DNA of 64,000 nt, from NCBI GenBank assembly GCA_900155415.1, contig LT700187.1:2418001-2482000 (forward strand), in the 5' to 3' direction. The position numbers and the translations under genes were made by a program. How positions within the stretch are numbered: the first letter of the stretch is position 1; each line of letters begins with the position of its first letter. Below the pieces are notes generated by a model. The model made no database searches. It was not told where the DNA came from and saw only the letters and a list, made by a program, of their open reading frames with translations. Shown here one piece after another: positions 25,619-47,192 of this stretch. Source of the DNA: Christensenella massiliensis. GTDB lineage: Bacteria; Bacillota; Clostridia; Christensenellales; Christensenellaceae.

Positions 25619-26839
25619 TTAATAATCTGTACGATTTCTCCTTGGTTTTTTCTTAAGGAAAGAGGGTATCTCAAGGTCTTCATCACCAAACGGTTCCAAA
25701 GCTTCCTGCCCTTTCGCCCCCATTTCCTTCAATTCCGGCATAGCCGGCGAAGAAGTATTGAGGGTCGCTTTTTCGCGGTCACGATGCGGGATCGGCGGTT
25801 CGAGGTTAAGAGAGACTTCATCAGTAAACTCTATCTTCTCTTCAACTTTCTGCTTCTGCACCTTAGGCATACCTGCCGTTTCCGGGGCGTCAAAGCCAGT
25901 GGCTATTACTGTAATACGCACCTCGTCGTCCAAAGACGGGTCGATGCATACACCAAAGAATACATCCGCTTCCGGGTCCGCCCCCTCCTGAATAATTTTT
26001 GCCGCTTCCTGAATCTCATACATACCGAGCGACGGATCTCCCGTTACATTGAAGATGATTCCGCGCGCACCTTCGATCGTCGTATCGAGCAGCGGACTGT
26101 TGATCGCCTGCTTTGCGGCCTCAACCGTTTTATTTTCTCCGTAACCGATACCGATTCCCATATGCGCAACGCCGCGCAGCGTCATAACCTTTTTGACATC
26201 CGCAAAGTCAAGATTGATAAGGGCGGGCTTGCCAATCAAATCAATGATGCCCTGTATTCCCTGCCTCAGGACATCGTCCGCTACACGAAACGCATCAACG
26301 AGAGGCGTATCCTTACCTACCGTACTGAGCAGCTTATCGTTTGGGATCGTTACGATCGTATCGACGACTGATTTCAAATCTTCAAATCCAGCTTCTGCCG
26401 CTTTCGCGCGGGGATGCCCTTCAAACCAGAACGGTTTCGTAACAAACCCGATCGTAAGGCAGCCGTCCTCCTTTGCGATCTCTGCGATCACGGGTGCGGC
26501 TCCGGTTCCTGTACCGCCGCCGAGGCCGCAGGAAACAAACACAAGGTCGGCCCCTTTGACCGCCTGCTCCAGTTCGTCCCGGCTCTCTTCTGCCGCTTTT
26601 CGCCCCGTAGACGGGTCTGCCCCAGAACCGAGCCCCTTCGTCAGCTTCTCGCCGATCTGTATCTTCTGATCGGCTTTCGAAAGAAAGAGGGCCTGCTTGT
26701 CCGTATTGACGGCAATCAATTCCGCTCCTTTGACTCCAAATTCTATCATTCTGTTGACGGCATTATTTCCTGCGCCGCCAACACCGAAAACGCGAATTTT
26801 TGCAAAATTTTCGCTGTTATTATCAAATTCAAGTGACAT
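25619..26839 (-). CDS. ftsZ: Cell division protein FtsZ
   Basis: A 406-residue tubulin-like GTPase that forms the division ring. GTP-binding signature [11 protein letters not shown], earlier [16 protein letters not shown]7-type synergy segment [12 protein letters not shown] variable linker follows residue 315, then a conserved tail [16 protein letters not shown] for binding FtsA and other partners. AAGGAGG before the ATG. Last gene of the mraZ-ftsZ run, 26 bases after ftsA. Confidence 0.97.
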
Positions 26840-26865
26840 TTGTTTTCCTCCTTGGTATGGATAAG

Positions 26866-28047
26866 TTATTCAAACAGTACATCCTGTCCCTTTCCAAAAA
26901 AGCCCTTTTTTCTGGTCGGAGGCTTGCTTTGAATGTAACCGTCATACGCATATTGCATCAGCGCATAGGCCGAATGCATATCCGGCGGCTGAAGCTTGGT
27001 GTTTGGAACCTTGATCAGAGAGGGTATCCGCCCCGATACCGCCCGGAAAAAGCTGTCTGAGCCTTTCATAAACGCGAGTCCCCCACCTGTCAGATAAATA
27101 TTGATCTTTCTGCCAAGCTTTGCTTCGACCCTTGATATATATCTGCCGATATACATAATAAGATGCTCAACACGCGCGTCGATGATCTCCTTTAACAAAT
27201 CGTAGGGATACTTTCTAAGCTTTCCTTCTGCATCCTTTGCAAACAACTGTGATATGCTGTTGTTGTCACTCAGGCCAAATGTATAGCGGCGCTTCAGCTG
27301 TTCCGCCGTTTCCGCCTCAACTTTCATGGCATAAGAAATATCGCTTGTTATATGTCCACCGCCCATCGGGATCGTTGCAAAATATAAAATAGAATCTCCA
27401 TAGACGATAGAAAAATTTGTACTGTAATAGCCGATATCTATCAGGGCAGCAAAGGAATCCCGCTTTTCTGCCGGAAGCAGATAAAGCGCCTCCGCAAGAG
27501 GCTCGGGTATAAAATAATCCACTCTGACGCCTAAATGGTTCAAAAGATCGAGCGCATCCTTTAAGAAAAACTTATTGGCAAACGTAAACGAAACGCTCCC
27601 CCGCAAATTTTTTGTCGGAACGTCATAGGGTTCCAGATATACATTTTTATCGTCGAGTAAAAACCATGCCGGCCACTCATGAACGAGCGATAGGTCTTCC
27701 AGAATGTCAAAGCGCCGTGCTCTTTCTACAAGTCTGTCTACATCGCGCTCTGAGACCCGTCCTTTTACAGGCACCTGCGCAGACTGGGTAATCACTTTAA
27801 TAAAAGAACCCGGTATCCCTACATCAGCGCTCCTGATGCGAAATCCGGTTTGACGTTCACACGATTCCAAAGCCTGCTCTACCGCATAAATAACATTTTT
27901 GGAATCCACCCAATTTGCTTTTTTGATGCCCGAATAGGGAACCTGCGCGTAACCTAAAACCTCCAGCCCCATGCGCTGCTTTCTTTCAGCGACGGTGCAG
28001 GAAATTTTCGAAGTTCCAAATTCAACAACCGTTTTGAAATCTTTCAT
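26866..28047 (-). CDS. ftsA: Cell division protein FtsA
   Basis: A 393-residue actin-like protein that tethers FtsZ to the membrane. ATPase blocks [29 protein letters not shown] and [11 protein letters not shown]; the C-terminal [14 protein letters not shown] is the membrane-targeting amphipathic segment. It is somewhat divergent from model FtsA proteins but its length, order and position before ftsZ fit. Confidence 0.9.
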
Positions 28048-28192
28048 TCAAAAACCAACCTTAGCGTCCCGTTTTCTTACGTAATTGAAAACCATTATGC
28101 ATATCATACCACATTTATTCTAAAAACGAAACACTTTTGTGTAAATTCCGTTCTATTTGCGGCCCTTCCTGCTCCTTATTCCCATCTGCAGC

Positions 28193-29023
28193 CTATTCTG
28201 CCGCTTCCTCTTCGGGAGTTTGCATACCATCCCCGCCATCCGGCTGAGTCGTATCCTCAGATGGCACGGCAGCTTCATCACCATTCAGCTGATAGGTCGC
28301 CGATATTCCCAGAGTCACATCAAGCGTTCCTGTTATATCCCCACTTGCTGCAAGCTTAGGGATCATGCGCTTTATCATTTTTACTTTATCCGCTACCTTA
28401 TCTGCCTGTCCGAATTTGATATCCAGACCTTCCCTTGTCCGCATTTTGATATTGTTGATATCCGTCAGGTCTATTGTTTCTATTTGCTCTGCAAGCTCTC
28501 TTTCCTGAAGAGCAGTTAGAATCTCTGAATATACATTTACCTTAAAGCTGTCCTGCGTTGATAATTGCTCCCCAAGATTTACTGCCTCTATCGAAAATCC
28601 AGTAACGACCGGATATTGCTCCGCCGGCAGCTCTGAGAGCATCTCCAAAACATTTGCATGGACATCTGCCAGCAAATACTGCTCCGCATAAGGGATCACC
28701 GCTGCCGCAGTACGTTCTTCCACTTCAATCACCAAGGTTTTGGGATAGTCTTTCGCAATATCTTTTACTTCCAAATAAGGCTCCGCTTCGATCCGTTCCT
28801 TTATTTCATCCTCGTTTACAAAAAACATGTGGGTTTTAGGCTCGATCTCCGCCAATTTTGCAATATCGCTGTTGGAAAATGTTGGGTGCGTTCCCGTAAT
28901 CTTGATATTCTCTACCTGAAAATAAGCATATACAAAGTAACCTGCTCCTGCCAAAAGCAATATAATCAATACGACCGTCAGTATCGTTTTTCCGACGCTG
29001 TGCGCTTTTCTCCGTTCCTTCAT
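28193..29023 (-). CDS. ftsQ: Cell division protein FtsQ/DivIB
   Basis: A 276-residue bitopic protein: short basic cytoplasmic start, one membrane helix (about residues 14-34), a POTRA domain (IKITGTHPTFSNSDI), a beta domain ending near residue 240, and an acidic Pro-rich tail. It stabilises the FtsL-FtsB complex of the divisome. Start after GGAGG. It directly follows ftsW; the usual murG and murB genes between them are absent. Confidence 0.88.
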   Translation of the reverse strand: MKERRKAHSVGKTILTVVLIILLLAGAGYFVYAYFQVENIKITGTHPTFSNSDIAKLAEIEPKTHMFFVNEDEIKERIEAEPYLEVKDIAKDYPKTLVIEVEERTAAAVIPYAEQYLLADVHANVLEMLSELPAEQYPVVTGFSIEAVNLGEQLSTQDSFKVNVYSEILTALQERELAEQIETIDLTDINNIKMRTREGLDIKFGQADKVADKVKMIKRMIPKLAASGDITGTLDVTLGISATYQLNGDEAAVPSEDTTQPDGGDGMQTPEEEAAE

Positions 29024-29033
29024 ATCTCCTCCG

Positions 29034-30188
29034 TCATGCCTTTCTGCGCGCCGCGCTGCCCGCCATCATGATTCTCCGGCCCTGCTTTGAAATATTGAGC
29101 AATATCCCGATCATGCTCATAAAGATGATCAGCGACGAGCTTCCATAGCTAATAAACGGCAAAGACACGCCTGTAGGCGGCAAGGAGGCAGTTACTACGC
29201 CCACATTAACGATCACCTGCAGCCCTATCAGCGTAATAATTCCCGTCGCAAGCATCGTGCCGAATAGATCGGGAGCCGTTGCCGCAACCTTGATGCCTCT
29301 GTAGATCAGAAAAATAAACAAGGCAAGCAGCAGAACCGCCCCCACAAGCCCCAGCTCTTCCGCTATGATCGAAAAAATAAAATCCGACTCTCCGTACGGA
29401 AGCCATGAAAGCTTCTGCGTTCCATTGCCGATGCCCTGTCCGAATAGCCCGCCCGAGCCGATCCCATATAATGCCTGAATCACCTGATACCCATCCCCTG
29501 TCGGATCCTGCCACGGGTCCATAAACGAGGTGACTCGCGCAACGCGATATCCTTTTTGGAACATGAGTACGAAAAGCCCAACGGCGCCGATCCCGCCTAT
29601 CGCGGCAAGATGCCAGCCTTTTGCGCCTCCTACAAAAATCATAATAAATGTAAGCGCGCATAAAATAAGAATGGCAGAATAATTAGGCTGAAAATAGAGC
29701 AGGATGCAAATCGGCGCAAGCACCAATAAAGGTGGAAGAATACCATGCCGCAGCGTATTCATTCGATTACGGTTGATATAGACAGAAGCCGCGATAAAAA
29801 CGATCAAGGCAAATTTAGCAATCTCCGCAGGCTGAATACTGATCCCAAATACCCGAATCCACCGGGAGGACCCATTCAGATTCGTTCCCGCGCTCGTCAG
29901 AACAGCAATTAAAAAAATGCCTGCGACCGCGAGGAGGATATACCGCAGCTTAAACAGCTTCTTATAATCAAAAAACATAAAGAATATCATCGCCACAAGC
30001 CCTATTGCTGCGCCAATGAGCTGCTTTTTGAAAAGCGCCAGCCCATCATAATCATACTCCGCGGAGGACTGCGCCATATAATAGCTGGCGCTGAACACCA
30101 TGATGACTCCGTAGGCGATCAATATAAGCGTTACGATCAGAATGGAATAATCGATCGACCCTTTTTGTAGGATACTCTTTTTCTGCAT
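29034..30188 (-). CDS. ftsW: SEDS-family peptidoglycan polymerase FtsW/SpoVE
   Basis: A 384-residue protein with about ten membrane helices. Family blocks: WIRVFGISIQPAEIAKFALI, QPNYSAILIL, GYQVIQALYGIGSGG and the C-terminal PPTGVSLPFISYGSSSL. It makes glycan strands at the septum together with a class B penicillin-binding protein. The PBP of this cluster has lost its active site, so FtsW may pair with another PBP. It begins two bases after murD. Confidence 0.93.
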   Translation of the reverse strand: MQKKSILQKGSIDYSILIVTLILIAYGVIMVFSASYYMAQSSAEYDYDGLALFKKQLIGAAIGLVAMIFFMFFDYKKLFKLRYILLAVAGIFLIAVLTSAGTNLNGSSRWIRVFGISIQPAEIAKFALIVFIAASVYINRNRMNTLRHGILPPLLVLAPICILLYFQPNYSAILILCALTFIMIFVGGAKGWHLAAIGGIGAVGLFVLMFQKGYRVARVTSFMDPWQDPTGDGYQVIQALYGIGSGGLFGQGIGNGTQKLSWLPYGESDFIFSIIAEELGLVGAVLLLALFIFLIYRGIKVAATAPDLFGTMLATGIITLIGLQVIVNVGVVTASLPPTGVSLPFISYGSSSLIIFMSMIGILLNISKQGRRIMMAGSAARRKA

Positions 30189-30189
30189 A

Positions 30190-31545
30190 TCAAAGTCCGT
30201 TTACGATCTCCTTAAAAATACGTCCCCTCTCTTCGAAGTTCGGGAACATGTCCCAACTGGCGCAGGCCGGCGAAAGCAGAACGTTATCTCCCTCGTCCGC
30301 TATGCTATACGCCTTGAGCACTGCGTCTTCAAAGCCATTAGCGCAAATATAGTTCCGATATCCGCAGTATTCAGCCGCTTCCATCAATTTTTCCGCCGTA
30401 TCTCCAAGGACGATGACCGCCTTGATCAGAGGCGTAAATGCTTCGAACAGCGGCACAAAATCATTCTTCTTATCATAACCTCCCAAGATCAATACGGTCG
30501 GTGCAGCCATCGCGCGTATCGCGTTTACCGTCGCATCCGGATTCGTTCCTTTGGAATCGTTAATAAAGGTGACCCCGTTCACCGTTCGAACAAATTCGAT
30601 TCGATGTTCTACACCCGGAAAAGTGCGAAGCGTATGCGCGATTACATCTGGAGCGATCCCATATAGACAGGCCAACGCCGTAGCTGCGAGCGCATTTTCG
30701 AGATTGTGATGTCCCGGGATGCGCAGCTCCGCAGCAGGCATAATATTTCTCTTCCTTCCATTCAAGGAAAACCGGATTTCTCCTTCCTCCACAAAGGCGC
30801 CGTCCTCCACTACTTTTTCTGTACTGAACCAAATCACCTTTGCGCTGATCTGTCCCTCAAGCTCTCTCACGATCTCGTTGTCATAATTAAGCACACAGTA
30901 ATCTTCCGGCGTTTGATTTTTAAAGATCTTTGCTTTCGCTGCAATATAATTTTCCATCGTTCCATAGCGGTCCAGATGGTCTTCTGTAATATTCAGTATG
31001 GCGCTTTCCCGCGGACGATAGGATTCGATCGTATCGAGCTGCAGCGCCGCTGTTTCGGCTACTACAACATCCCCCGGCTGCGTTTGCATCGCCTCCTGCG
31101 TGATTGGAACGCCAATATTGCCCAATACATGCGTTGGGATCCCTGCATTTTTGAATATTTCCCCCGTCAGAGCCGTTGTCGTCGTTTTCCCGTTCGTTCC
31201 CGTGATCGCAATAAAGTCGGCCTTCGAGACCGCAAAGCCAAGCTCGATCTCTGCAATAACATGCTTGCCTAATTCATATGCTTTGCGGATAAAAGGAAGC
31301 CCCAGCGGCACTCCCGGACTAAGGACGAGAATGTCCATCTCAGGGATGATATCCGTAGGCTCCTTTCCCAACATGTCGTGGTAAATGCAGCCATCTAATT
31401 CCTGAAGCAGTTCCTGCGGAATATCCTCGCGTTTTTTTACATCATAGACCGTTACGTCTGCTCCAAGCCTGCATAAAAGCGCGGCGGAAGATACGCCGCT
31501 TTTCGCCATTCCGATAACCAGTACTTTTTTATTTTTGTAGTCCAT
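30190..31545 (-). CDS. murD: UDP-N-acetylmuramoyl-L-alanine:D-glutamate ligase MurD
   Basis: A 451-residue Mur ligase adding D-glutamate in the cytoplasm. ATP site AITGTNGKTTTTAL, second-domain block NITEDHLDRYG and the C-terminal FINDSKGTNPDAT, ILGGYDKKNDF. Start at 31545 after AGGAGG; an in-frame ATG upstream (31566) lacks a site. Confidence 0.95.
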   Translation of the reverse strand: MDYKNKKVLVIGMAKSGVSSAALLCRLGADVTVYDVKKREDIPQELLQELDGCIYHDMLGKEPTDIIPEMDILVLSPGVPLGLPFIRKAYELGKHVIAEIELGFAVSKADFIAITGTNGKTTTTALTGEIFKNAGIPTHVLGNIGVPITQEAMQTQPGDVVVAETAALQLDTIESYRPRESAILNITEDHLDRYGTMENYIAAKAKIFKNQTPEDYCVLNYDNEIVRELEGQISAKVIWFSTEKVVEDGAFVEEGEIRFSLNGRKRNIMPAAELRIPGHHNLENALAATALACLYGIAPDVIAHTLRTFPGVEHRIEFVRTVNGVTFINDSKGTNPDATVNAIRAMAAPTVLILGGYDKKNDFVPLFEAFTPLIKAVIVLGDTAEKLMEAAEYCGYRNYICANGFEDAVLKAYSIADEGDNVLLSPACASWDMFPNFEERGRIFKEIVNGL

Positions 31546-31570
31546 ATTACGCCTCCTGAAGTACATCCGC

Positions 31571-32584
31571 CTAAACCGTGAAGAAGAACAGCAAAAAAGC
31601 TCCGGCGCTCAGAAGCACCGTTGCGATCATATATCCTGTAACGACCTGCGTTTCGCTCGCGCCCCCAAGCTCAAAATGATGATGAAGCGGCGCCATGCGG
31701 AATACGCGTTTCCCACGCAGTTTGAAGGAGCCGACCTGAATAATAACGGATATCGCCGAAAGGACAAACATAAAGCCCATGACCGGCAGAAAAAGCTGCA
31801 GGCCCGTCGCAATGCCCATAGCGGTCAGCGCCGCTCCGAGCGCAAACGCACCCGTGTCTCCCATAAAAACTTTCGCGGGATGTACATTAAAGCACAAAAA
31901 TGCAATGCATGCGCCTGTGACCGACGCCGTAAACATTGTCATGTTAGACATATCCGTTAAAATTTCTGCGCTCGACATGCCAACTGCGCCAATGACACTC
32001 AGCAAGAATATCAAAAGAAATGTGGATGAATTGATCAGCGTGATTCCCGTCGCAAGACCATCAAGCCCGTCTGTTAAATTTACGCTGTTGACCATAGCAA
32101 GGAGCACGAACATCGTAAACGGAATAAAACCGACCCCCATATGCCATAACTGGGCAGACACCGGTATCATCACGAAATCGATCTCAAGCCAATAATATGC
32201 GAGGCAGGCTACAAGAGCCGCAGCTACGAGCTGCAGTACGATCTTTTGCCATGCCCGCAGGCCGAGCGAACGCTTTTTAAACAGCTTGAGCCCATCGTCT
32301 AAAAAACCGATCGCCGTAAAAGCCAAAACGGTGACGACAGCGAAAAGCGTATCATTTAAATCTCCAGACGAAAAGACGAAGCTCGCCGCAATAATGCCAA
32401 TCAGCATCGCGATCCCGCCCATCGTCGGCGTCCCCTCTTTCACAAGATGTGTCTGCGGACCGTCATCACGAACATGCTGCCCTGCTTTTGCTTTCTTCAG
32501 GATCGGAATCAATATCTTCGATGCAATGAAAGTGATCGCGAAAGCGATCAATATCGTAACCAGTATCTGTACTGTAAAATTCAT
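31571..32584 (-). CDS. mraY: Phospho-MurNAc-pentapeptide transferase MraY
   Basis: A 337-residue integral membrane enzyme making lipid I. Active-site blocks: GTPTMGGIAML, GFLDDGLK, NSVNLTDGLDGLATG, FMGDTGAFALGA and FRMAPLHHHFELGG. About ten membrane segments. The gene directly follows murE with a 24-base gap; murF, normally between them, is missing. Confidence 0.96.
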   Translation of the reverse strand: MNFTVQILVTILIAFAITFIASKILIPILKKAKAGQHVRDDGPQTHLVKEGTPTMGGIAMLIGIIAASFVFSSGDLNDTLFAVVTVLAFTAIGFLDDGLKLFKKRSLGLRAWQKIVLQLVAAALVACLAYYWLEIDFVMIPVSAQLWHMGVGFIPFTMFVLLAMVNSVNLTDGLDGLATGITLINSSTFLLIFLLSVIGAVGMSSAEILTDMSNMTMFTASVTGACIAFLCFNVHPAKVFMGDTGAFALGAALTAMGIATGLQLFLPVMGFMFVLSAISVIIQVGSFKLRGKRVFRMAPLHHHFELGGASETQVVTGYMIATVLLSAGAFLLFFFTV

Positions 32585-32608
32585 AAAGCGTTAATCCTTT
32601 ATCTTTCG

Positions 32609-34066
32609 TTATTTTCCTGCGGGCGCCATCCGGTCCAGAATTTCTTCCACGACAACCTTTTCATCAAAATCATGTTTCACGCCTTTGATTTCCTGATAGT
32701 CCTCATGGCCTTTTCCTGCCAGCAGGATCACATCATCTTTTTTCGCATTGCGGATCGCATATTCTATTGCATCTCTGCGGTTTTCTATACAGACGTATTC
32801 TCCGCCCGTTTGCTTCATTCCCTCTTCGATCTGCGCAATGATCGCTCCCGGCTCCTCAAATCGCGGATTATCTGATGTGATTACCGTAAAATCCGCACGC
32901 TCGCCCGCTATTTTCCCCATAATGGCCCGTTTGCTCGAATCCCGGTTTCCACCGCAGCCGAAAATGGTCACGACGCGGGCAGGCGCAAAGCTTTTCGCCG
33001 TATCGAGTGCATTTTTAAGGCTATCCGGTGTATGCGCATAATCGAGGATGATACTGAAATCCCTTCCGTGTGTATCAAGCGGCTCAAATCGTCCTGCCAC
33101 AGGCTTCATCTGCTTCAGGCCATGTTCGATACAGTAGCTGTCGATCCCCGCCGCATGACAAGCCACAACGGCAGCCATAGCGTTATATACAGTAAAATAT
33201 CCCGGTATCGGCACTTCAATATGCAGATCACGTCCATCGATCTCCACTGTGAATCTTGTTTTTTCATGGGTCAATTCCAAATCTTTTGCCGCATACTGTA
33301 TCGGCTGCAGCACACTATATTTTATGACCTCCCGTTTAGCCGCTCCCATCATATTGGCTGCACTATCGTCATCGATATTGATGATCGATATCTCCGACTG
33401 TTCAAACAGCATGCTTTTCGCTTGTATGTAATTATCCCATGTTTCATGGAAATCCAAATGATCCTGCGTCAAATTGGTGAAAATACCGATATCAAAATCG
33501 ATCCCATAAACGCGCTTCAAAACCAAGGAATGTGAGGATACCTCCATCACAAGGACTTCGCACCCCTCATCCGCCATTTCTTTCAGAAGTCTTTGCAGAT
33601 CAATAGATTCAGGAGTCGTGCGCTCCGTATGAAGCACCCTGTCTCCAATCATATTACGAATCGTTCCGATCAGCCCGACTTTGCGGCCTGCCTGTTCCGC
33701 GACCGCTTTGATCATATAGGTCGTAGTGGTCTTGCCGTTCGTTCCCGTTACTCCAATCATTTTCATACGGCGGGCGGGATAGCCAAAAAAGCGGCAGGCA
33801 GCAAGCGCCATCGTTTCTCTGTCGTTTTTCACAATGACCTGCGGCACCTTAATATGCTCCTGATACTCCGTTACCACGACTGCCGCTGCGCCTTTTTTCA
33901 CGGCATCCGGCGCATACTTGTGCCCATCTTCTGCAAATCCGGAAATACAAAAGAACAAATCGCCTTTGCGTACGCTGCGGGAATCATACTTCAGGTCCTT
34001 GATCTCCGTCGCACCGTCTCCGTGAATTTGACAATTCATATCGCGAAACAACTCTTTTAATTTCAT
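32609..34066 (-). CDS. murE: UDP-MurNAc-tripeptide synthetase MurE, meso-diaminopimelate type
   Basis: A 485-residue Mur ligase. ATP site VTGTNGKTTTTYMI, middle-domain LTQDHLDFHETWDNY, and DNPRFEEP: the DNPR motif marks enzymes that add meso-diaminopimelate rather than lysine. AGGAGG precedes the ATG. Located between the penicillin-binding protein gene and mraY. Confidence 0.95.
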   Translation of the reverse strand: MKLKELFRDMNCQIHGDGATEIKDLKYDSRSVRKGDLFFCISGFAEDGHKYAPDAVKKGAAAVVVTEYQEHIKVPQVIVKNDRETMALAACRFFGYPARRMKMIGVTGTNGKTTTTYMIKAVAEQAGRKVGLIGTIRNMIGDRVLHTERTTPESIDLQRLLKEMADEGCEVLVMEVSSHSLVLKRVYGIDFDIGIFTNLTQDHLDFHETWDNYIQAKSMLFEQSEISIINIDDDSAANMMGAAKREVIKYSVLQPIQYAAKDLELTHEKTRFTVEIDGRDLHIEVPIPGYFTVYNAMAAVVACHAAGIDSYCIEHGLKQMKPVAGRFEPLDTHGRDFSIILDYAHTPDSLKNALDTAKSFAPARVVTIFGCGGNRDSSKRAIMGKIAGERADFTVITSDNPRFEEPGAIIAQIEEGMKQTGGEYVCIENRRDAIEYAIRNAKKDDVILLAGKGHEDYQEIKGVKHDFDEKVVVEEILDRMAPAGK

Positions 34067-34121
34067 TTCCCAGTTCCTCCTGAAATCCGGATTTTATTAT
34101 ACCACAAAATATTGTATCCAT

Positions 34122-36224
34122 CTACTGCGCCGCCGCAATTTGTAGTTTGAAATCAACTACGATACTGCTGCCACGGCTCACCTGCGTTCCCGCGGCCGGA
34201 GATTGCTCCTGTACGACTCCGTTTCCTCGTGCAACAAACACCAATCCGGAGGCAATCGCCGTATTTTTGGCCTGCGTCATATCCATTCCGGTAAAATCAG
34301 GAACAGTGACCATTTCTGTTCCCTCCGGCTGTATCGCTTTTGTTTCCATCGTAAGCGCTACCGTGCTGTTTTTATGAACTTCCGTTGCTGCCGTCGGAAA
34401 CTGGCTGACCACACTTCCGCTCCCATCATACGACGACTGCAGGCCAATATCTGCAAGAGCATCCCGCGCTTCCTGCAGCTCCATCCCAACAACATTTGGT
34501 ACAGTCACCGTCTCTTCCGGCTGCAGCGTTTCATCCGGCATGATATTCCCGTTTTTCAGCGTTCCCAGAAGCGTATTCTGTACATAAGGCGCACATACCG
34601 ACTCCACCGAATCTGTAGCGGTTACCCCCGTCGCTGTAATCATCACCATATATTTAGGATCGTCGGCAGGCGCATACGCGATATAGGTCGCCACGGCTTT
34701 ATCTGCTACGACCGCACCGTCTTTATGCTGGACTGCTGAACCGCTGATCGCCCCTGCGGAATATCCGGTCAGACTGATCCCGTCCTCCTTTGCCCGCGCT
34801 TCCATGATCGTTCTGACCTGAGCAGAGGTCTCTGCGGTGACGCTTTGCCCCCTCACCTCTGGTTCATAGCTTTCCACCATATTGCCCTCGGCATCCGAAA
34901 GTCCTAAAACCAGCTTTGGTGTATAGAGTGTTCCTCCGTTTATCAACGCGCATGCGGCGCTTGCGAGCTGTATTTGCGAGATCTCCAGACCTTCGCCCGC
35001 CCCCATCGCAGCTACATCCGCATTTCTGATATACCGTTTTTCCGCAAGGCTGCCTGCCGTATCCGACGAGAAATCAATGCCCGTTTCGCTCCCAAAACCA
35101 AACCCTTTTACATACTGATAGAAAACATCTCTGCCCATAGCGTTCGCCTGCATGGCTGCGCCCACGCTGCAATGATCCAGCACTGCATCCGTGAGCGTTT
35201 GTGTTCCATGCGCTCCGTTCAGGCAGGATACTACGTCCCCGTCCGTCGCAAAGGAACCGGTACAGGAATATTCCCCCGCTGCACTGCCGCTGTCTATTGC
35301 AGCTGCTGCCGTAAATATCCCAAAAATGTTTCCCGGCTCGTAAGCCGTTGCCGTGATAACATTAGTAGAAAGAGCCGAAAGCGCTTCCGCATCCTCCCGC
35401 GGCGGTGAATTCAAATCAAATTCCGGTATATTGGCCATCGCGAGAATCTCTCCATTTGTCACATCCATGACCAAGCCTTGTACGCTTTCCGGCGCTTGAG
35501 ACTCATACAGTTCCTTGCAGGCGCTCTCCAGAAAGCTCTGTGTGATCTCGTCGATCGTCAACACTACATTTAGGCCGTCCTGCGGCTGTATCATCATCTC
35601 CTGTCCGTTTGGAACGCCGCTGCCGTCCTTTGCCGTTTCAGCCACCTGTCTGCCCGCCCGCCCGGCTAGCGTTGTATTATAGCGCCGTTCGATCCCTGTC
35701 TGCCCTTCGCCGTCCAGCGTCGTATAGCCAATGACCTGTGCTGCAAAATCCTTGTTCGGATAGAAACGTTTTACATCGTCCCGAAAGGCGACTCCCTCAA
35801 GCCCCAGAGCTTCGATCTGCTCCGACTGCTCGGTAGATATCTGCCGTTTCAGCCATATCTCTTTTTTATCTGTGTTTGTCGCTTTTTCGTAAATATCATT
35901 TCGGTCAAGGCCCAGTATCTGAGACAGCTGGTCTGCGATCTCATTGGCATTTTGAGCTTTTTCTATCTTTTCCGGCAGAAGGACTACAGTATCTGCCGCC
36001 GCGCTCTGCGCCAGAATCTGCTGATTGCGGTCCATAATCGAACCACGTTTTGCGCTCACTTCAATATCTTTTACCCATTGCGATTCCGCCTGAGCCTTAA
36101 GATCTTCTCCCCGCCATAAAGACCAATATCCCACTCGTGTCATGAGCAGGATAATGAGTATGATCAATATAAGCAATAAGACGAGCAGCCTTTTCCTTGT
36201 AATCAGAACATGAGAGTTTGCCAA
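34122..36224 (-). CDS. SpoVD/FtsI-type penicillin-binding protein with degenerate active site and two PASTA domains
   Basis: A 700-residue class B PBP by architecture: membrane helix near residues 12-30, dimerisation domain, transpeptidase domain and two C-terminal PASTA repeats (about 575-700, PNVVGMELQEARDAL and PDFTGMDMTQAKNTA). The scaffold is well kept (VMDVTNGEILAMANIPEFD, GFGFGSETGIDF), but catalytic motifs are replaced: SxxK is N299-IF-G302 in YEPGNIFGIF; SxN is H351-C352-S353; KTG is I493-S494-G495. The reading frame is intact with a TTG start and AAGGAG site, so this looks like a selected pseudo-enzyme rather than a decaying gene. A structural divisome or PASTA-sensing role is inferred. 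Confidence 0.88.
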   Translation of the reverse strand: MANSHVLITRKRLLVLLLILIILIILLMTRVGYWSLWRGEDLKAQAESQWVKDIEVSAKRGSIMDRNQQILAQSAAADTVVLLPEKIEKAQNANEIADQLSQILGLDRNDIYEKATNTDKKEIWLKRQISTEQSEQIEALGLEGVAFRDDVKRFYPNKDFAAQVIGYTTLDGEGQTGIERRYNTTLAGRAGRQVAETAKDGSGVPNGQEMMIQPQDGLNVVLTIDEITQSFLESACKELYESQAPESVQGLVMDVTNGEILAMANIPEFDLNSPPREDAEALSALSTNVITATAYEPGNIFGIFTAAAAIDSGSAAGEYSCTGSFATDGDVVSCLNGAHGTQTLTDAVLDHCSVGAAMQANAMGRDVFYQYVKGFGFGSETGIDFSSDTAGSLAEKRYIRNADVAAMGAGEGLEISQIQLASAACALINGGTLYTPKLVLGLSDAEGNMVESYEPEVRGQSVTAETSAQVRTIMEARAKEDGISLTGYSAGAISGSAVQHKDGAVVADKAVATYIAYAPADDPKYMVMITATGVTATDSVESVCAPYVQNTLLGTLKNGNIMPDETLQPEETVTVPNVVGMELQEARDALADIGLQSSYDGSGSVVSQFPTAATEVHKNSTVALTMETKAIQPEGTEMVTVPDFTGMDMTQAKNTAIASGLVFVARGNGVVQEQSPAAGTQVSRGSSIVVDFKLQIAAAQ

Positions 36225-36240
36225 ACTTCCAACTCCTTAC

Positions 36241-37314
36241 CTACGCTTGAAACCATCCTTTTACAGCTTCCATTAAGTCGGCAAAGAAATTTTTCAAGCC
36301 GTCAAAGACTCCTCCGGCGGTTTCAGCATTGCCTGCTCCTACCTGTACCGGAGACTGCTCCTGCATTTCCGCTGCTGCATTTTGCGTGCCTTTGTCAACC
36401 GTACTGCTTGCCGCCATCTCGTCCGCATCCGGCTCGAGATAAACGATTTGGTCGTCTGTCGGATAGTACATCCCGAGTTCCGTCCGTGCCTTCTCCTGAA
36501 TACTGTTTAAATCTTCCGCCAAAGCGATATCCATTTTCACCTTTTCCAATTCGTCTTTCAGAACTTCGTTCTGTGTCTGTATCTGCGCATTGTTGTAGCT
36601 GATATTACTGATCGAAGCATAACGGATCACAATACCGCTTAATACGGCAAATACAAAGGCGATCAGGAGAATCGTAGATACAACGCCTTTCTTTTTGGGG
36701 CTTTCATATTCTACTGCGATCGGTTTTACGCCATTGTATGCCGTGTTTTCGATCTCACGCGTTTGTTCATAGCGCTGCGTATGTTTTCTTGCTGCCGGTG
36801 CATAACCGCCATAGCTCGCAGCCGGACGCGGACGTACGGCTTCGGTACGGTAATACTGTTCCGCGCTTTCCCTATATACGTTTGCCTTTTGCGGCCTCCG
36901 CGCCTCGCTTCTTGCCGGCGCATAGCCGCCCTCATAAGCAGGCGTGAGCCTTCTGCCCCCGACGACATTTTTTACGCCCGTCTGACGTATTCCATAGCGC
37001 TCTCCCTGCTGTTCAGTTGGTCTCCGGTAATTCGCTGCGGCGTGCGGCTGCTCTATTTTTCTTCTATCTGCTGTCCGGCGTTCCTGCCGATAGTTCGTCC
37101 GTATATTTTGCGTGCGCGGCGCGGCATTGACCGCTTCAACACGCCTGCGTGCATATTCTTCGTCCTGAAGCCCGAGCCTGCGCCGTTCTGCCGCGATTTT
37201 TTGCATGCGGTAGGCTTCCATATCGGAGATACGTCCGCGCTGTACATCGTTTATTTTGCGCGGCAGCTGTATTCTTTCGTAATTGTCGTATGCTCTCTGG
37301 GGTATCGCGTTCAT
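36241..37314 (-). CDS. FtsL-position bitopic protein with long basic N-terminal extension
   Basis: A 357-residue protein between rsmH and the PBP, where ftsL usually lies. Residues 1-205 are Arg/Tyr/Ala-rich and look disordered. One membrane helix (about 211-230) follows, then a coiled coil (238-272) and RTELGMYYPTDDQIVYLEP, the FtsL/DivIC-type ending. An acidic linker and an amphipathic helix (GGVFDGLKNFFADLMEAVK) close it. The second half fits FtsL, which is normally about 120 residues; the N-terminal 200 and the C-terminal helix are extra. The extension might bind nucleic acid or cytoplasmic partners; that is inference. Confidence 0.7.
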   Translation of the reverse strand: MNAIPQRAYDNYERIQLPRKINDVQRGRISDMEAYRMQKIAAERRRLGLQDEEYARRRVEAVNAAPRTQNIRTNYRQERRTADRRKIEQPHAAANYRRPTEQQGERYGIRQTGVKNVVGGRRLTPAYEGGYAPARSEARRPQKANVYRESAEQYYRTEAVRPRPAASYGGYAPAARKHTQRYEQTREIENTAYNGVKPIAVEYESPKKKGVVSTILLIAFVFAVLSGIVIRYASISNISYNNAQIQTQNEVLKDELEKVKMDIALAEDLNSIQEKARTELGMYYPTDDQIVYLEPDADEMAASSTVDKGTQNAAAEMQEQSPVQVGAGNAETAGGVFDGLKNFFADLMEAVKGWFQA

Positions 37315-37329
37315 CGCTTTTTCCTTTCG

Positions 37330-38268
37330 CTATCGCTTCTCCACCACCCGCAGTTTTGCGCTCCGCGCACGCGGGTTTTTTCTCAATTCCTCTTGACCCG
37401 GCTGGATCGGTTTTTTTGTTATTATTTTTATCTGGCTGACCTTTCCGCATACGCATACCGGAAAATCTTTCGGGCATTCACATGGCTCGAACAATTTCCG
37501 GAACGCTTGCTTTACGATTCTATCCTCGAGGGAGTGGAAGGTGATCACTGCGAACCTCCCTCCACTTCTCAGGACAGAAACATAATCCTCCAGTGCTTCT
37601 CTAAGACCTGTCAGTTCCCCGTTTACCTCGATGCGCACTGCCTGAAATGTACGTTTCGCAGGATGCGGCCCATCTCTTCTGGCAGCGGCAGGAATCGCTT
37701 GTTTAATGATCTCTGTCAGTTCCCCGGTTGTTTCTATCTTCTTCTTTTTCCGTTCCTCTGTTATAAATTTTGCAATACGCGCCGCCCAGCGCTCTTCCCC
37801 GTATTCCTTTATGACCCGATGAAGTTCATCCTCGCTATATCCGTTTACTACATCACACGCGCAAAATTCATTCGTCCGGTCCATACGCATATCGAGCGGC
37901 GCATCCGCCTGATAGGAAAATCCCCGTTCTCCTTCGTCCAATTGAAACGACGATACGCCGAGATCCAATACCGCTCCGTCTATCTCTTGGACTGCAAGGT
38001 TGTCTAAAATTTTTCTGACGTTTTTAAAATCGTCATGGACGAGCGTAAGCATTCCTCTGTATCTGCCGAGACGTTCCCTGCACCGCTCTATTGCCGCAGC
38101 ATCTCTGTCTATCCCGATCAGACGTCCGTTCGGCGAGACCGCCTCCAGAATGCCGCGCGCATGTCCTCCGCCGCCAAGCGTGCCATCTATGATAATATTT
38201 CCGGGCTCAAGCTCAAGTGCTGTGAGCGTTTCCCGATAAAGCACCGGGATATGTCCGGTCTCTTTCAT
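37330..38268 (-). CDS. rsmH: 16S rRNA (cytosine1402-N4)-methyltransferase RsmH (MraW)
   Basis: A 312-residue methyltransferase. Motifs: [24 protein letters not shown] (SAM site), [28 protein letters not shown], and [11 protein letters not shown]. Coupled to mraZ by an ATGA overlap. Normal length. Confidence 0.96.
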
Positions 38269-38696
38269 ATACCAAGCTCCGCTAATTTTGCAAGCGTCTC
38301 CTCATAGTCCTGATAAGCGCTGTCGTTGTATTCTTCCCAGCCCTCTTTTGACCATATCTCCGCCCGTGTCATCACACCGATAATAACAGTTTCTTTCGTC
38401 ACGCCGATATGGTCGCGCAGACGCTGAGGCAACAGTATCCTTCCCTGCTTGTCCCCTTCACATTCACATGCGCTGGCAAACAGCATACGCGTGAAACTCT
38501 GCGCCGCGACATCAGAAATCGGCAGACCTTTGAGCTTCCCCGCAAAATTCTCCCATTCCTCTGATGAAAACACAAACAGACACTTGCCAACGCCTTTCGT
38601 CACGATAAAGCTCTCGCCTAAATCGTCACGGAATTTCGCCGGCATGAATATTCTGCCTTTGGCGTCTATGTTGTGTGTGTATTCACCAATCAACAT
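38265..38696 (-). CDS. mraZ: Transcriptional regulator MraZ
   Basis: A 143-residue AbrB-like protein with the two DxxxR repeats: [19 protein letters not shown] and [19 protein letters not shown]. It regulates the division cluster through repeated sites in its own promoter, which are visible at 38717-38744. Start at 38696 after AAGGAG. First gene of the cluster. Confidence 0.95.
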
Positions 38697-38716
38697 TCCC
38701 GCGGAAACTCCTTCCC

Positions 38717-38744
38717 CCACTTTTAACCACTTTTCACCACTTTT
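38717..38744 (-). promoter_or_regulatory. MraZ box: three AAAAGTGG direct repeats, 10-base period
   Basis: Minus strand AAAAGTGG at 38744-38737, 38734-38727 and 38724-38717. This matches the repeated AAAGTG-type MraZ operator described in Mollicutes. It lies between the -10 element and the ribosome site, suited to autorepression. Confidence 0.85.
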
Positions 38745-38750
38745 ATTCAA

Positions 38751-43528: not shown

Positions 43529-43622
43529 CTTTCTCCTTGTGGTTTTTAAAAAAGCGTTTTTTTCTATCATACTGAAATCCTGTTCCTTTTACAAATGAAA
43601 TCCAAGCTTTTTTTTGCTTACA

Positions 43623-43662
43623 ACAAAAGACGCATCCCATATTATTACATGGAATGCGTCTT
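43623..43662 (-). terminator. Terminator of ppdK
   Basis: Stem AAGACGCAT / ATGCGTCTT with an imperfect upper part, then a short T tract on the minus strand. Confidence 0.65.
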
Positions 43663-43693
43663 AAAAATTATTATCCGCAATAAGTTCCTAAGC

Positions 43694-46321
43694 TTATTTG
43701 GACTTTACGACTGCATGTGCTGCTGCAAGACGTGCAATCGGCACGCGGAACGGCGAGCAGGATACATAGTTCAGTCCAATACTGTCGCAGAACTCAACTG
43801 TGGACGGATCACCGCCATGTTCCCCGCAGATTCCCAGCTTGATATCCGGGCGGGTCTTGCGGCCGAGTTCCACAGCCATCTTGACAAGCTTGCCTACGCC
43901 GTCCTGATCGAGCTTCGCAAACGGATCGGATTCGTAGATCTTCTTCGTATAGTAATCGTCAAGGAACTTGCCGGCATCGTCACGGCTGAATCCAAACGTC
44001 ATCTGCGTCAGATCGTTCGTACCGAACGAGAAGAATTCAGCTTCTTCCGCGATTTCATCCGCAACAACGGCAGCTCTCGGCACTTCGATCATCGTACCGA
44101 CTTTGTACTCGATCTTTTTACCTTTTTCTTCCATAACTTTTTCTGCCGTCTCAACGACGTAATCTTTTACATATTTCAGTTCTTTCTTGTCGCCCACGAG
44201 CGGAATCATGATTTCAGGAACGATATCATAACCTGTTTCTTCGATCGTCTCGATCGCAGCTTCCATAACCGCTCTCGTCTGCATAACAGCAATCTCCGGG
44301 AACGTGACCGCAAGGCGGCATCCACGATGGCCAAGCATCGGGTTGAACTCATGGAGTCCTTCGATGATACCGGTCAACTCGTCAACATCAAGCGACATTT
44401 CCTTTGCCAGCGCTGCGATATCGTCGGGATCAGTCGGCAGGAATTCATGCAGCGGCGGATCAAGGAAGCGAATCGTGACCGGGTTTCCTTTCATCGCCTT
44501 ATAGATGCCCTTGAAGTCTTCCTTCTGCATCGGAAGAAGCTTCGCGAGCGCTTTCTCTCTCTGCTCGACCGTCTTGGATACGATCATCTCACGCATAGCG
44601 GCGATCCTGTCTTCCGCAAAGAACATGTGCTCCGTACGGCACAGGCCGATGCCTTCTGCTCCGAACGCCATTGCCTGCTCCGCATCGTGCGGTGTGTCGG
44701 CATTCGTGCGTACCTTCAGTCTGCGAATGGAATCCGCCCAACCCATAACGGTCGCAAAATCTCCTGTGACCTGAGCTTCCTGCGTCTCGATCGCTTCGCC
44801 ATATACGTTACCCGTAGAACCATCGAGGGAGATCCAATCTCCTTCTTTATAGACCTTACCGTCTTCCGTAGTCATCGTTTTAGCGTTCTCGTCGATTCTC
44901 AGTTCACCGCAGCCCGCTACGCAGCAGGTTCCCATACCGCGGGCAACAACAGCCGCGTGAGACGTCATACCGCCGCGTGCCGTCAGGATACCTTCGGAAG
45001 CATACATACCTTCAATATCTTCAGGAGAAGTTTCCTGCCGCGCAAGAACTACTTTGTTCCCGTTCGCAGCAGCTTCCGTAGCAGCCTCCGCCGTGAAATA
45101 CAGCATGCCGCAAGCCGCACCGGGAGAAGCCGGCAGACCTTTTGCGATCGGCTTCGCTTTCTTGAGCGCATCCGCATTGAACATCGGGTGGAGGAGCGAA
45201 TCGAGCTGTTTCGGTTCTACTTTGAGGATCGCTTCTTCCTCAGTGAGTTTTCCTTCTTTTACGAGGTCTACGGCAATTTTGAGAGCAGCCGGAGCCGTAC
45301 GTTTTCCGTTTCTCGTCTGCAGCATGAAGAGCTTGCCGCCTTCGATCGTAAACTCCATATCCTGCATATCTTTGTAATGATCTTCCAGAGACTGCGCGAT
45401 CGTCGCAAACTGCTCGTAAACTTCCGGCATCTGATCTGCAAGATGCGAAATCGGCTGAGGCGTTCTGATACCTGCAACAACATCCTCGCCCTGTGCGTTC
45501 ATCAGATATTCGCCATAAAGCTTCTTTTCGCCTGTGGAGGGGTTTCTGGTGAAAGCAACGCCTGTTCCGCAATCGTCACCCATGTTGCCGAATACCATTG
45601 CCTGTACGTTGACAGCGGTACCCCAGCTTGCCGGAATATCATTCATGCGGCGGTATACGATCGCTCTTGGGTTATCCCACGAACGGAATACTGCCGTTAC
45701 TGCTTCAAGAAGCTGTTCCTTTGCGTCCTGCGGAAACTCTTTGCCCATTTCACGCTTATAGATCTCTTTATATTTTTTAACGACTTCTTTCAGATCGTCC
45801 GCATCCAGCTCAGTATCCATCTTCACGCCTTTTGCGTCTTTTGCAGCCTGAAGCTGTTCTTCGAACAATTCCTTATCGATGCACATAACAACGTCGGAGA
45901 ACATCTGGATGAATCTTCTGTAGCTGTCATACGCCCAACGCGGATTGCCGGATTTCTTCGCCATGCCCTCCACCGCAACATCATTGAGGCCAAGGTTCAG
46001 GATCGTGTCCATCATGCCCGGCATGGAAGCGCGTGCACCGCTGCGGACGGATACGAGGAACGGGTTTTCCGGATCGCCGAATTTTTTGCCTGCGATCTCT
46101 TCCGTCTTTGCCATCGCATCATAAATCTGCTCTACTACTTCGTCGGCAATCTTTTTACCGTCTTCATAATACTTCGTGCAAGCCTCCGTAGAAACCGTGA
46201 AACCTTGGGGAACCGGCAGGCCAAGATTGGTCATTTCAGCCAGATTGGCGCCTTTGCCCCCGAGAAGGTTCCTCATGGAAGCATCACCCTCTTTAAAAAG
46301 GTATACATACTTCTTTGCCAT
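43694..46321 (-). CDS. ppdK: Pyruvate, phosphate dikinase
   Basis: An 875-residue enzyme interconverting pyruvate + ATP + Pi with phosphoenolpyruvate + AMP + PPi, used by anaerobes for glycolysis or gluconeogenesis. The N-terminal ATP-grasp part starts with LLGGKGANLAEM; the swivelling phosphohistidine is in GGMTSHAAVVARGMG; the C-terminal TIM barrel has GLCRTEHMFF, GTNDLTQM and the active cysteine region LGICGEHGG. Preceded by AGGAGG. Monocistronic with its own promoter and terminator. Confidence 0.97.
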   Translation of the reverse strand: MAKKYVYLFKEGDASMRNLLGGKGANLAEMTNLGLPVPQGFTVSTEACTKYYEDGKKIADEVVEQIYDAMAKTEEIAGKKFGDPENPFLVSVRSGARASMPGMMDTILNLGLNDVAVEGMAKKSGNPRWAYDSYRRFIQMFSDVVMCIDKELFEEQLQAAKDAKGVKMDTELDADDLKEVVKKYKEIYKREMGKEFPQDAKEQLLEAVTAVFRSWDNPRAIVYRRMNDIPASWGTAVNVQAMVFGNMGDDCGTGVAFTRNPSTGEKKLYGEYLMNAQGEDVVAGIRTPQPISHLADQMPEVYEQFATIAQSLEDHYKDMQDMEFTIEGGKLFMLQTRNGKRTAPAALKIAVDLVKEGKLTEEEAILKVEPKQLDSLLHPMFNADALKKAKPIAKGLPASPGAACGMLYFTAEAATEAAANGNKVVLARQETSPEDIEGMYASEGILTARGGMTSHAAVVARGMGTCCVAGCGELRIDENAKTMTTEDGKVYKEGDWISLDGSTGNVYGEAIETQEAQVTGDFATVMGWADSIRRLKVRTNADTPHDAEQAMAFGAEGIGLCRTEHMFFAEDRIAAMREMIVSKTVEQREKALAKLLPMQKEDFKGIYKAMKGNPVTIRFLDPPLHEFLPTDPDDIAALAKEMSLDVDELTGIIEGLHEFNPMLGHRGCRLAVTFPEIAVMQTRAVMEAAIETIEETGYDIVPEIMIPLVGDKKELKYVKDYVVETAEKVMEEKGKKIEYKVGTMIEVPRAAVVADEIAEEAEFFSFGTNDLTQMTFGFSRDDAGKFLDDYYTKKIYESDPFAKLDQDGVGKLVKMAVELGRKTRPDIKLGICGEHGGDPSTVEFCDSIGLNYVSCSPFRVPIARLAAAHAVVKSK

Positions 46322-46401
46322 CTAAAACTCCTCCTGAATTTATATTTATTTAAAAATGACTCGTTTATCGCATCCCAATCAGCTCATGAAAAGCCACGTA
46401 T

Positions 46402-46430
46402 ATTATACATGATTAAATGTAATAAAACAA
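46402..46430 (-). promoter_or_regulatory. Promoter of ppdK
   Basis: Minus strand: TTGTTT (46430-46425), 17-base spacer, TATAAT (46407-46402). Confidence 0.65.
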
Positions 46431-46445
46431 CAAAAGATTACACTT

Positions 46446-47192
46446 TCACAAAGATTTTTCCCGGAAATATCTCATTGTTTTCAGGCGCAGATCCATCATG
46501 TTTTCAAGATACTGTTCCATCAATTCTATCGTTTCTTTCGCCTCTGCTTCATCAGCCGCCGCCTGCACAATATCCTGCGGCCTCGCTTTCCCCATCACTT
46601 CCAGCCCCGCGAGCATATTGCGCGAGACCGTGCGCACGCTTATATGAGGTGCACAGGCAGTACATATCTCACCGCCCTCTTCCAAGGAAAACGCCGCCGT
46701 TTCCCCGCCGTCCGCCGTTTCCCGCCCGCAGACCGCACACGTTCCCAGCGCCGGGAAGATCCCCATGCGCTCTACCGTCCGCGAAAGGAAATACGCAAGT
46801 GCCCGCGTACCGGAAAGCCTGTCCTGCTCCATCGCAAACAGAGAATATATCAGTGCCAAAAAAAGGTCCTCATAGTCGTCTGTGTTTTGAATGAGCTTAT
46901 CCGCCAACTCCAGCATGACACAGGCCGCTGAAAACTTATCGTAATCATTTTGGACCCGGTAAAATTCCTGCTTCATGAGCGCCGCCGTAAGAAACAGCTT
47001 ATCGTCTTTTTTATAAAACTCATATTCTCCGCAGGCAAGCGGCTGACAGGCCGTCGCAAGCTCGCTTTTTATTCTCCTCGCACCTCGTGCCTGTGCATGT
47101 ATCCGTCCATGTGACCGCGAAAAAAGGGTCAATATCTTATCGTAATCTTTATAATCCACCGTGCGCAGTACGATACAGTAATGTTTTTCCAC
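46446..47192 (-). CDS. recO: DNA repair protein RecO
   Basis: A 248-residue protein of the RecFOR pathway loading RecA. OB-fold N-terminus IVLRTVDYKDYDKILTLFS and a zinc finger CAVCGRE...GEICTACAPH in the second half. I choose a GTG start at 47192 with GGAGG eight bases away; an ATG at 47222 is in frame but without a site. Follows era, as in many Firmicutes. Confidence 0.9.
   Translation of the reverse strand: MEKHYCIVLRTVDYKDYDKILTLFSRSHGRIHAQARGARRIKSELATACQPLACGEYEFYKKDDKLFLTAALMKQEFYRVQNDYDKFSAACVMLELADKLIQNTDDYEDLFLALIYSLFAMEQDRLSGTRALAYFLSRTVERMGIFPALGTCAVCGRETADGGETAAFSLEEGGEICTACAPHISVRTVSRNMLAGLEVMGKARPQDIVQAAADEAEAKETIELMEQYLENMMDLRLKTMRYFREKSL

Follow-up and report, generated by a model that had tools for sequence, protein, structure and literature searches.

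The class B penicillin-binding protein (bPBP) encoded in the dcw cluster of Christensenella massiliensis has lost the catalytic motifs of its transpeptidase (TP) domain, and this dead PBP is not simply decaying but is under purifying selection. The loss of the active site apparently happened several separate times within the order of Christensenella (seven independent losses on the tree), and it is tied to the absence of spore genes. We consider it probable that catalysis was lost together with sporulation, and that the dead PBP was kept as a non-catalytic activator of FtsW while another PBP makes the crosslinks. Dead class B PBPs are already known as laboratory mutants; the new part is represented by the natural, recurrent dead dcw copies, and no natural dead dcw class B PBP appears in titles or abstracts among the matches listed from open-access PMC full text. 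An earlier note on this DNA had recorded the motif loss and had inferred a conserved pseudo-transpeptidase, which both stand, and had not noticed the recurrence, the link to spore genes or the kept zinc tetrad.

The gene lies in the window, i.e., the whole stretch of 64,000 nucleotides that was analysed, which belongs to a genome represented by a single contig of 2,560,186 bases. The frame is read on the minus strand from a TTG start at 36224 through 700 open codons, while the plus-strand reading of 34122-36224 has 8 stops. Its parts are the following:

34122..36224, minus strand: dcw-encoded SpoVD/FtsI-type class B PBP with a dead transpeptidase domain, 700 aa (ORF list, Pfam, match to 7RCZ)
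35619..36059, minus strand: PBP_dimer (pedestal) domain, residues 56-202 (Pfam; coordinates from residue numbers)
34620..35474, minus strand: TP domain, residues 251-535 (Pfam; coordinates from residue numbers)
34155..34517, minus strand: two PASTA domains, residues ~570-690 (profile matches; coordinates from residue numbers)
35319..35330, minus strand: ruined SxxK, N299-I-F-G302 (codons 299-302)
35208..35264, minus strand: first three Zn ligands C321, C334 and H339 (ligand assignment following PMC9334274)
35166..35174, minus strand: ruined SxN, H351-C352-S353, in which the Zn ligand Cys352 survives (codons 351-353)
34740..34748, minus strand: ruined KTG, I493-S-G495 (codons 493-495)

Pfam recognises both domains of a class B PBP (Transpeptidase, 143 bits at a cut-off of 22.1; PBP_dimer, 84.8 bits at a cut-off of 24.4) as well as two PASTA stretches. 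The best solved-structure match by sequence is C. difficile SpoVD 7RCZ (phmmer, 252 bits, residues 42-558), and this alignment places NIFG under STFK, HCS under SCN and ISG under KTG, in agreement with the codons. The SxxK, SxN and KTG set of an active D,D-transpeptidase is absent, and of its catalytic residues only the Gly of KTG remains, next to a Ser in place of the Thr. The sole S..K of the window protein is at 234 and the sole S.N at 286, and a search of the whole sequence found no K/H/R-T/S-G anywhere; therefore, no usable alternative register exists. The loss of all three motifs, the unbroken frame of 700 codons and the retention of the transpeptidase fold and PASTA domains, all claimed in the earlier note, are thereby borne out. 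That the protein has been misread, through another register, a sequencing error or residual activity by way of other residues, is scarcely credible, although some of the catalytic residues survive in two dead relatives (G027 and G038): the register is fixed by 7RCZ, and the motifs are lost in 6/6 Christensenella genomes, which excludes a sequencing artefact. We infer that the Christensenella PBP neither binds penicillin nor crosslinks. The claim on the fold rests on the Pfam and 7RCZ sequence matches, because the AlphaFold2 model obtained with the window protein and three relatives was poor (mean pLDDT 50.3, pTM 0.37). The NCBIfam SpoVD equivalog TIGR02214 gives 471.3 bits, under its cut-off of 688, but this cut-off alone is not decisive since three of four intact relatives also miss it (550, 618 and 673; the fourth reaches 716).

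The gene occupies the dcw position of SpoVD/FtsI (ftsL-PBP-murE, upstream of mraY-murD-ftsW) in a cluster with the order mraZ-rsmH-ftsL-PBP-murE-mraY-murD-ftsW-ftsQ-ftsA-ftsZ, where ftsW, ftsQ, ftsA and, weakly, ftsL have a Pfam basis and the other genes were named from sequence. The neighbours most relevant here are:

36241..37314, minus strand: FtsL-like protein, 357 aa, with a DivIC-like domain at 219-288 (Pfam 26.3 bits, under the cut-off of 28.9)
32609..34066, minus strand: murE, next gene downstream of the PBP and synteny marker (named from sequence)
29034..30188, minus strand: FtsW/SpoVE-type SEDS glycosyltransferase with the PYGESDF motif and Asp269 kept, putative partner of the PBP (Pfam and motif)
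28193..29023, minus strand: FtsQ/DivIB (Pfam)
26866..28047, minus strand: FtsA (Pfam)
25619..26839, minus strand: FtsZ (named from sequence)

The FtsL-like protein is long, with about 215 Arg/Tyr-rich residues N-terminal to its DivIC-like domain. When the frames of 25619-38750 were inspected by eye, murF, murG, murC and murB were not seen between murE and ftsZ.

To describe how far the dead state extends, we give the samples in turn. In the family, 18/18 genomes gave a match to the window protein; intact copies are those of G008 and G010-G014, and the six Christensenella genomes, G006, G016, G017, G007, G009 and G015 carry dead ones. The named relatives among the matches are C. intestinihominis (78%) and C. 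hongkongensis (62%). In the order-wide draw, 109/121 genomes matched at 1e-60, and the 119 loci examined together with the window protein comprise 103 intact copies, 15 dead ones and 2 fragments that do not reach the KTG region. The dead copies from outside the family are those of G038, G027, G061 and G117. Among the full-length dcw PBPs of the order (n=117), 102 have all three motifs and 15 are dead; the conservation of the motifs among intact rows is no independent result because "intact" is defined by the motifs themselves. Three fragments (G037, G097, G104) were left out of the trees and spore tables, and G016, dead and split by an assembly gap, was left out of the protein table; hence there are 16 dead genomes and 15 dead proteins. 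The score of PF00905 was rejected as a proxy for death, for the dead G038 still scores 244.7.

Two trees were built with the motif columns left out, a quick one with 117 rows and a careful mixture-model one with 42 rows, and seven changes of state are required on each of them. In the careful tree, starred branches place G015, G027 and the pair G007/G009 each within groups of intact relatives; support is lower for the positions of G038, G061 and G117, and the tree does not settle which group is sister to the Christensenella clade. The states are graded: G038 lacks only the Lys of SxxK, while G027 has Ser and Lys of SxxK and has lost SxN and KTG.

The dead state coincides with missing spore genes. 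We used SpoIVA (PF09547) and SpoVAD (PF07451) as spore markers, and neither was found in any of the 16 dead genomes, C. massiliensis included, so that the sporulating host expected for a SpoVD is not indicated by these two markers. At least one marker is present in 98/102 intact genomes: SpoIVA in 92, SpoVAD in six of the other ten, and neither in four, namely G021 (97% complete), G071 (90%), G080 (81%) and G039 (74%). Because of these four genomes the link is not absolute, and an active site can outlast the loss of sporulation, at least for a time. Independent pairs across the tree agree in 7/7 cases (sign test p 0.016, range to 0.031), two of the seven dead lineages resting on incomplete genomes (G015, 69%; G117, 88%). 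With genomes at least 90% complete, which leaves aside the dead G009, G015, G017 and G117, both markers are missing in 11/11 dead genomes and one is present in 78/80 intact ones, and 5/5 independent pairs agree (p 0.06). Catabacter and Christensenella are non-spore-forming by description, according to PMC8289216.

Family f4 presents another picture. Five of its genomes (G020, G073, G093, G110, G126) are SpoVAD-negative, SpoVAD being the only marker searched there; in each of them the window protein has no more than weak matches and SEDS is matched twice, and match searches revealed no dcw-type bPBP and no third SEDS gene. The f4 member G051, positive for SpoIVA and SpoVAD, has three SEDS matches, one of them ~5 kb from its intact dcw PBP. 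Set against the dead lineages, f4 suggests that sporulation loss seems to have two outcomes: either SEDS and bPBP are lost together, or they are retained together and the bPBP loses its active site. The absence of the dcw-type bPBP in f4 is perhaps the alternative outcome of this kind.

The selection acting on the dead gene was estimated from pairs within Christensenella (NG86). For the whole gene and for the TP domain dN/dS is 0.05-0.06, for anchor plus pedestal 0.025-0.04, for PASTA 0.07-0.10 and for FtsW 0.04; all these values are rough because dS is near saturation (1.3-2.3 for the gene, 1.1-3.0 over its parts). As a control, dN/dS of the active 726-aa PBP in the pair G004/G005 is 0.08 over the whole protein and 0.05 for the TP part, and dN in the TP domain of this pair is 0.108 for the dead domain against 0.043 for the active PBP; the dead domain is therefore constrained, but less than the active one. 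Among columns conserved to at least 97% in the intact proteins, the dead proteins keep 98% in the anchor/pedestal (17 columns), 71% in the TP domain without motif residues (36) and 31% of the motif residues (7), a pattern that is expected if fold and pedestal matter and catalysis does not. In the 15 dead proteins K302 is found once, K493 once and S299 five times. The conserved pseudo-transpeptidase postulated in the earlier note is supported by these values and by the loss common to the six Christensenella genomes, and an intact FtsW/SpoVE gene lies nearby; the alternative role as a PASTA muropeptide sensor received no support, since PASTA is the least constrained part in Christensenella and the matches of intact family members span PASTA too (to query residue ~690).

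One could suppose that sporulation was lost, that the enzyme became jobless and that it lingers as a slowly decaying relic because it is located in an essential operon. The TP/pedestal branch-length ratio is in line with this as well as with a fold kept without catalysis, being 1.78 on dead and 0.71 on intact branches (motif columns left out, uncorrected for kinship). A relic would also account for the higher dN of the dead TP domain in G004/G005, the graded motif states of G038 and G027 and the five f4 genomes in which the bPBP gene and a third SEDS were not found. However, we judge such a relic unlikely in view of the dN/dS of about 0.05, the 98% of anchor/pedestal columns retained, the zinc ligands kept in every dead protein and the absence of an internal stop in the 15 dead copies read, despite divergence inside the genus down to 59% identity to the window protein.

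These zinc ligands deserve separate attention. Zn-PBPs of anaerobic Firmicutes are recognised by Cys/Asp, Cys/Asp, His and the X-Cys of SxN, the set given in PMC9334274 being Cys, Cys, His and this X-Cys. The window protein has C321, C334, H339 and C352, so that by its ligand residues the putative Zn site is complete in the dead pocket. Positions 321, 334, 339 and 352 are kept in 15/15 dead proteins, C352 inside the ruined SxN included, while C321 is less conserved in the intact proteins (80/102). The complete tetrad around a ruined pocket, together with a His in place of the SxN Ser in 6/6 Christensenella, might mean that the dead PBP activates no FtsW and that the old active site was repurposed, e.g., as a septal sensor that uses zinc to detect redox state or a ligand; a redox-sensor role of this site is speculated for C. 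difficile PBPs in PMC9334274. We regard this as improbable: the former catalytic positions differ between the dead lineages (residue 299 is N, D, E, A, Q, T or S), which argues against a shared new chemistry, and the putative Zn site may be purely structural.

The presumed partner of the dead PBP is retained along with it. A SEDS gene with the PYGESDF-type Asp, which by motif we take to be the equivalent of E. coli D297, occurs in 15/16 dead genomes, the exception being G015 (69% complete). It directly follows murD in eight of the nine dead dcw regions mapped (gene order was mapped in nine dead and two intact relatives), and none was found in the dcw region of G015. In this genome and in G014, an intact member of the same genus, the fetched region (L187 and L196, respectively) showed no dcw gene beyond murE, and the dcw cluster seems to be split at this point in both. 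D297 is the putative catalytic residue of E. coli FtsW, and the FtsW residues implicated in activation are largely at the FtsI pedestal interface (PMC8765783).

Our preferred reading, in which a dead PBP activates FtsW, can be formulated as follows. The gene is, on this reading, the ortholog of the dcw class B PBP which spore-forming relatives keep as SpoVD, the partner of SpoVE/FtsW. Sporulating members would need the transpeptidase activity of this PBP to build the spore cortex, and after the loss of sporulation only a second job would be left, in which anchor and pedestal hold the adjacent SEDS polymerase and allosterically switch it on, within the FtsQ/FtsL complex, for septal glycan synthesis. 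The catalytic residues could then drift freely, while the fold with its zinc site, the anchor and the pedestal would stay under selection. Septal crosslinks would be made by another PBP, the best candidate being a MecA_N-type class B PBP; a class A PBP or the 472-aa PbpA might serve instead. Both the activation of FtsW by the dead PBP and the identity of the crosslinking PBP are points that we infer. The cited papers take bPBPs to activate their SEDS partners.

Several observations in other bacteria are consistent with such a division of labour. In B. subtilis, PBP2B inactivated by S309A is viable and supports division only together with an active PBP3, which is PBP2A-like and supplies the crosslinking (PMC5656894). 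The proposed MecA_N-type crosslinker resembles the PBP type that takes over there; however, S309A is one engineered Ser-to-Ala exchange, while the losses described here are natural, affect entire active sites and number about seven. In C. difficile, the catalysis of SpoVD is needed for the cortex and is partly dispensable for septation, and dead SpoVD S311A still helps septation if SpoVE is present; septation needs SpoVE and PBP3. It speaks against the proposed division of labour that the catalysis of PBP3 is not required there and that the crosslinking enzyme is described as unknown (PMC12713402). In contrast to the window PBP, S311A is a laboratory mutant in a sporulating host. C. difficile SpoVD (7RCZ) is likewise a class B PBP; it shares with the window PBP the Cys3His set of zinc ligands (PMC9334274) and is dcw-encoded (PMC10693644). 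It differs in being catalytic and needed for spores, while the window PBP lacks the Ser, the Lys, SxN and KTG, and its host lacks the two spore markers tested.

In C. difficile, a class A PBP runs vegetative division (PMC10693644), and the same may be proposed for Christensenella, which has a 995-aa class A PBP; the dead PBP/SpoVE pair would then have a minor or different job. This seems rather unlikely. In Bacilli, Negativicutes and Limnochordia, lineages without sporulation have lost the dcw SEDS gene as well, some Clostridia showing a mixed pattern (PMC10693644). Here, spore genes are missing and FtsW, FtsQ, FtsA and the bPBP are nonetheless retained, and strong selection was measured for FtsW and the bPBP. 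As in C. difficile, the clostridial dcw SEDS-bPBP pair would not be a normal FtsW-FtsI pair (PMC10693644); nevertheless, the C. difficile pair is sporulation-specific and active, while the Christensenella pair persists without spore markers and its bPBP is dead.

The earlier note had also expected an active class B PBP elsewhere in the genome to supply the crosslinks, and PBPs with intact motifs were indeed found. Four other transpeptidase proteins, each with SxxK, SxN and KTG, are encoded in the genome of C. massiliensis:

PbpA-type PBP, 472 aa, beside the second SEDS gene of the genome
858-aa PBP whose closest model is MrdA (427 bits, under the cut-off of 455), not far from the third SEDS gene
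Class A PBP, 995 aa
MecA_N-type (PF05223) class B PBP, 726 aa

The MecA_N domain (PF05223) was detected in this genome and in 8/9 other dead genomes scanned, with no match in the extra PBP of the dead G007. The extra PBPs of nine dead genomes, chosen by length and score, have SxxK- and KTG-like strings in 9/9 cases. The presence of a MecA_N PBP was dropped as the cause of the loss, since the intact G011 has one too. The dead G027 (L191, 98% complete) has one SEDS match and three transpeptidase-domain matches, which include its dead dcw PBP and a MecA_N-type PBP, and it may be the least complicated natural system to which the split-synthase model could apply.

This model goes further than the preferred reading and we put it forward only tentatively, thinking it somewhat doubtful as a whole: at least seven lineages would independently have turned a division/sporulation transpeptidase into a pure activator, so that FtsW with a penicillin-immune pseudo-PBP makes the glycan, a MecA-type PBP crosslinks it, and the zinc site is a regulatory remnant. 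If such a split machine is true, catalysis and activation by class B PBPs are separable in nature. Laboratory Ser-to-Ala mutants suggested a non-catalytic job of class B PBPs with SEDS polymerases, and the dead lineages look like natural experiments in which this job alone was left, about seven times. Their native proteins could be used to tell activation and crosslinking apart, and these lineages show which parts are protected by selection (anchor, pedestal and zinc site). They also lead to the prediction of a division complex whose bPBP subunit could not be hit by beta-lactams, and they bear on the role of the dcw SEDS-bPBP pair in vegetative clostridial division.

To understand whether dead copies occur more widely, we consider other orders, where 182/196 genomes matched at 1e-90; the loci inspected were those listed plus 60 regions, mainly from the lower-scoring listed matches. 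By motif state alone, the copies inspected in 116 genomes of these orders include none that is dead. In the first set, SxxK and SxN are kept in 88/88 loci, with KTA or KTS for KTG in four. Thirty weaker loci (28 genomes), some of which resemble other paralogues, have SxN in 30/30 and SxxK in 29 (one not covered), with KTS or KTA in three and the KTG position not covered in two. A class-wide rule was sought and not found, and the dead dcw PBP may be special to the order of Christensenella. KTA or KTS in place of KTG, with SxxK and SxN intact, was noted in the SpoVD-like PBPs of L292, L296, L301, L321, L335, L340 and L350.

Elsewhere in the window, a 1099-aa open frame on the plus strand (43595-46894) runs antisense to a well-formed 875-aa pyruvate-phosphate-dikinase-like gene (43694-46321, minus strand, named from sequence), and is probably an artefact of codon bias.
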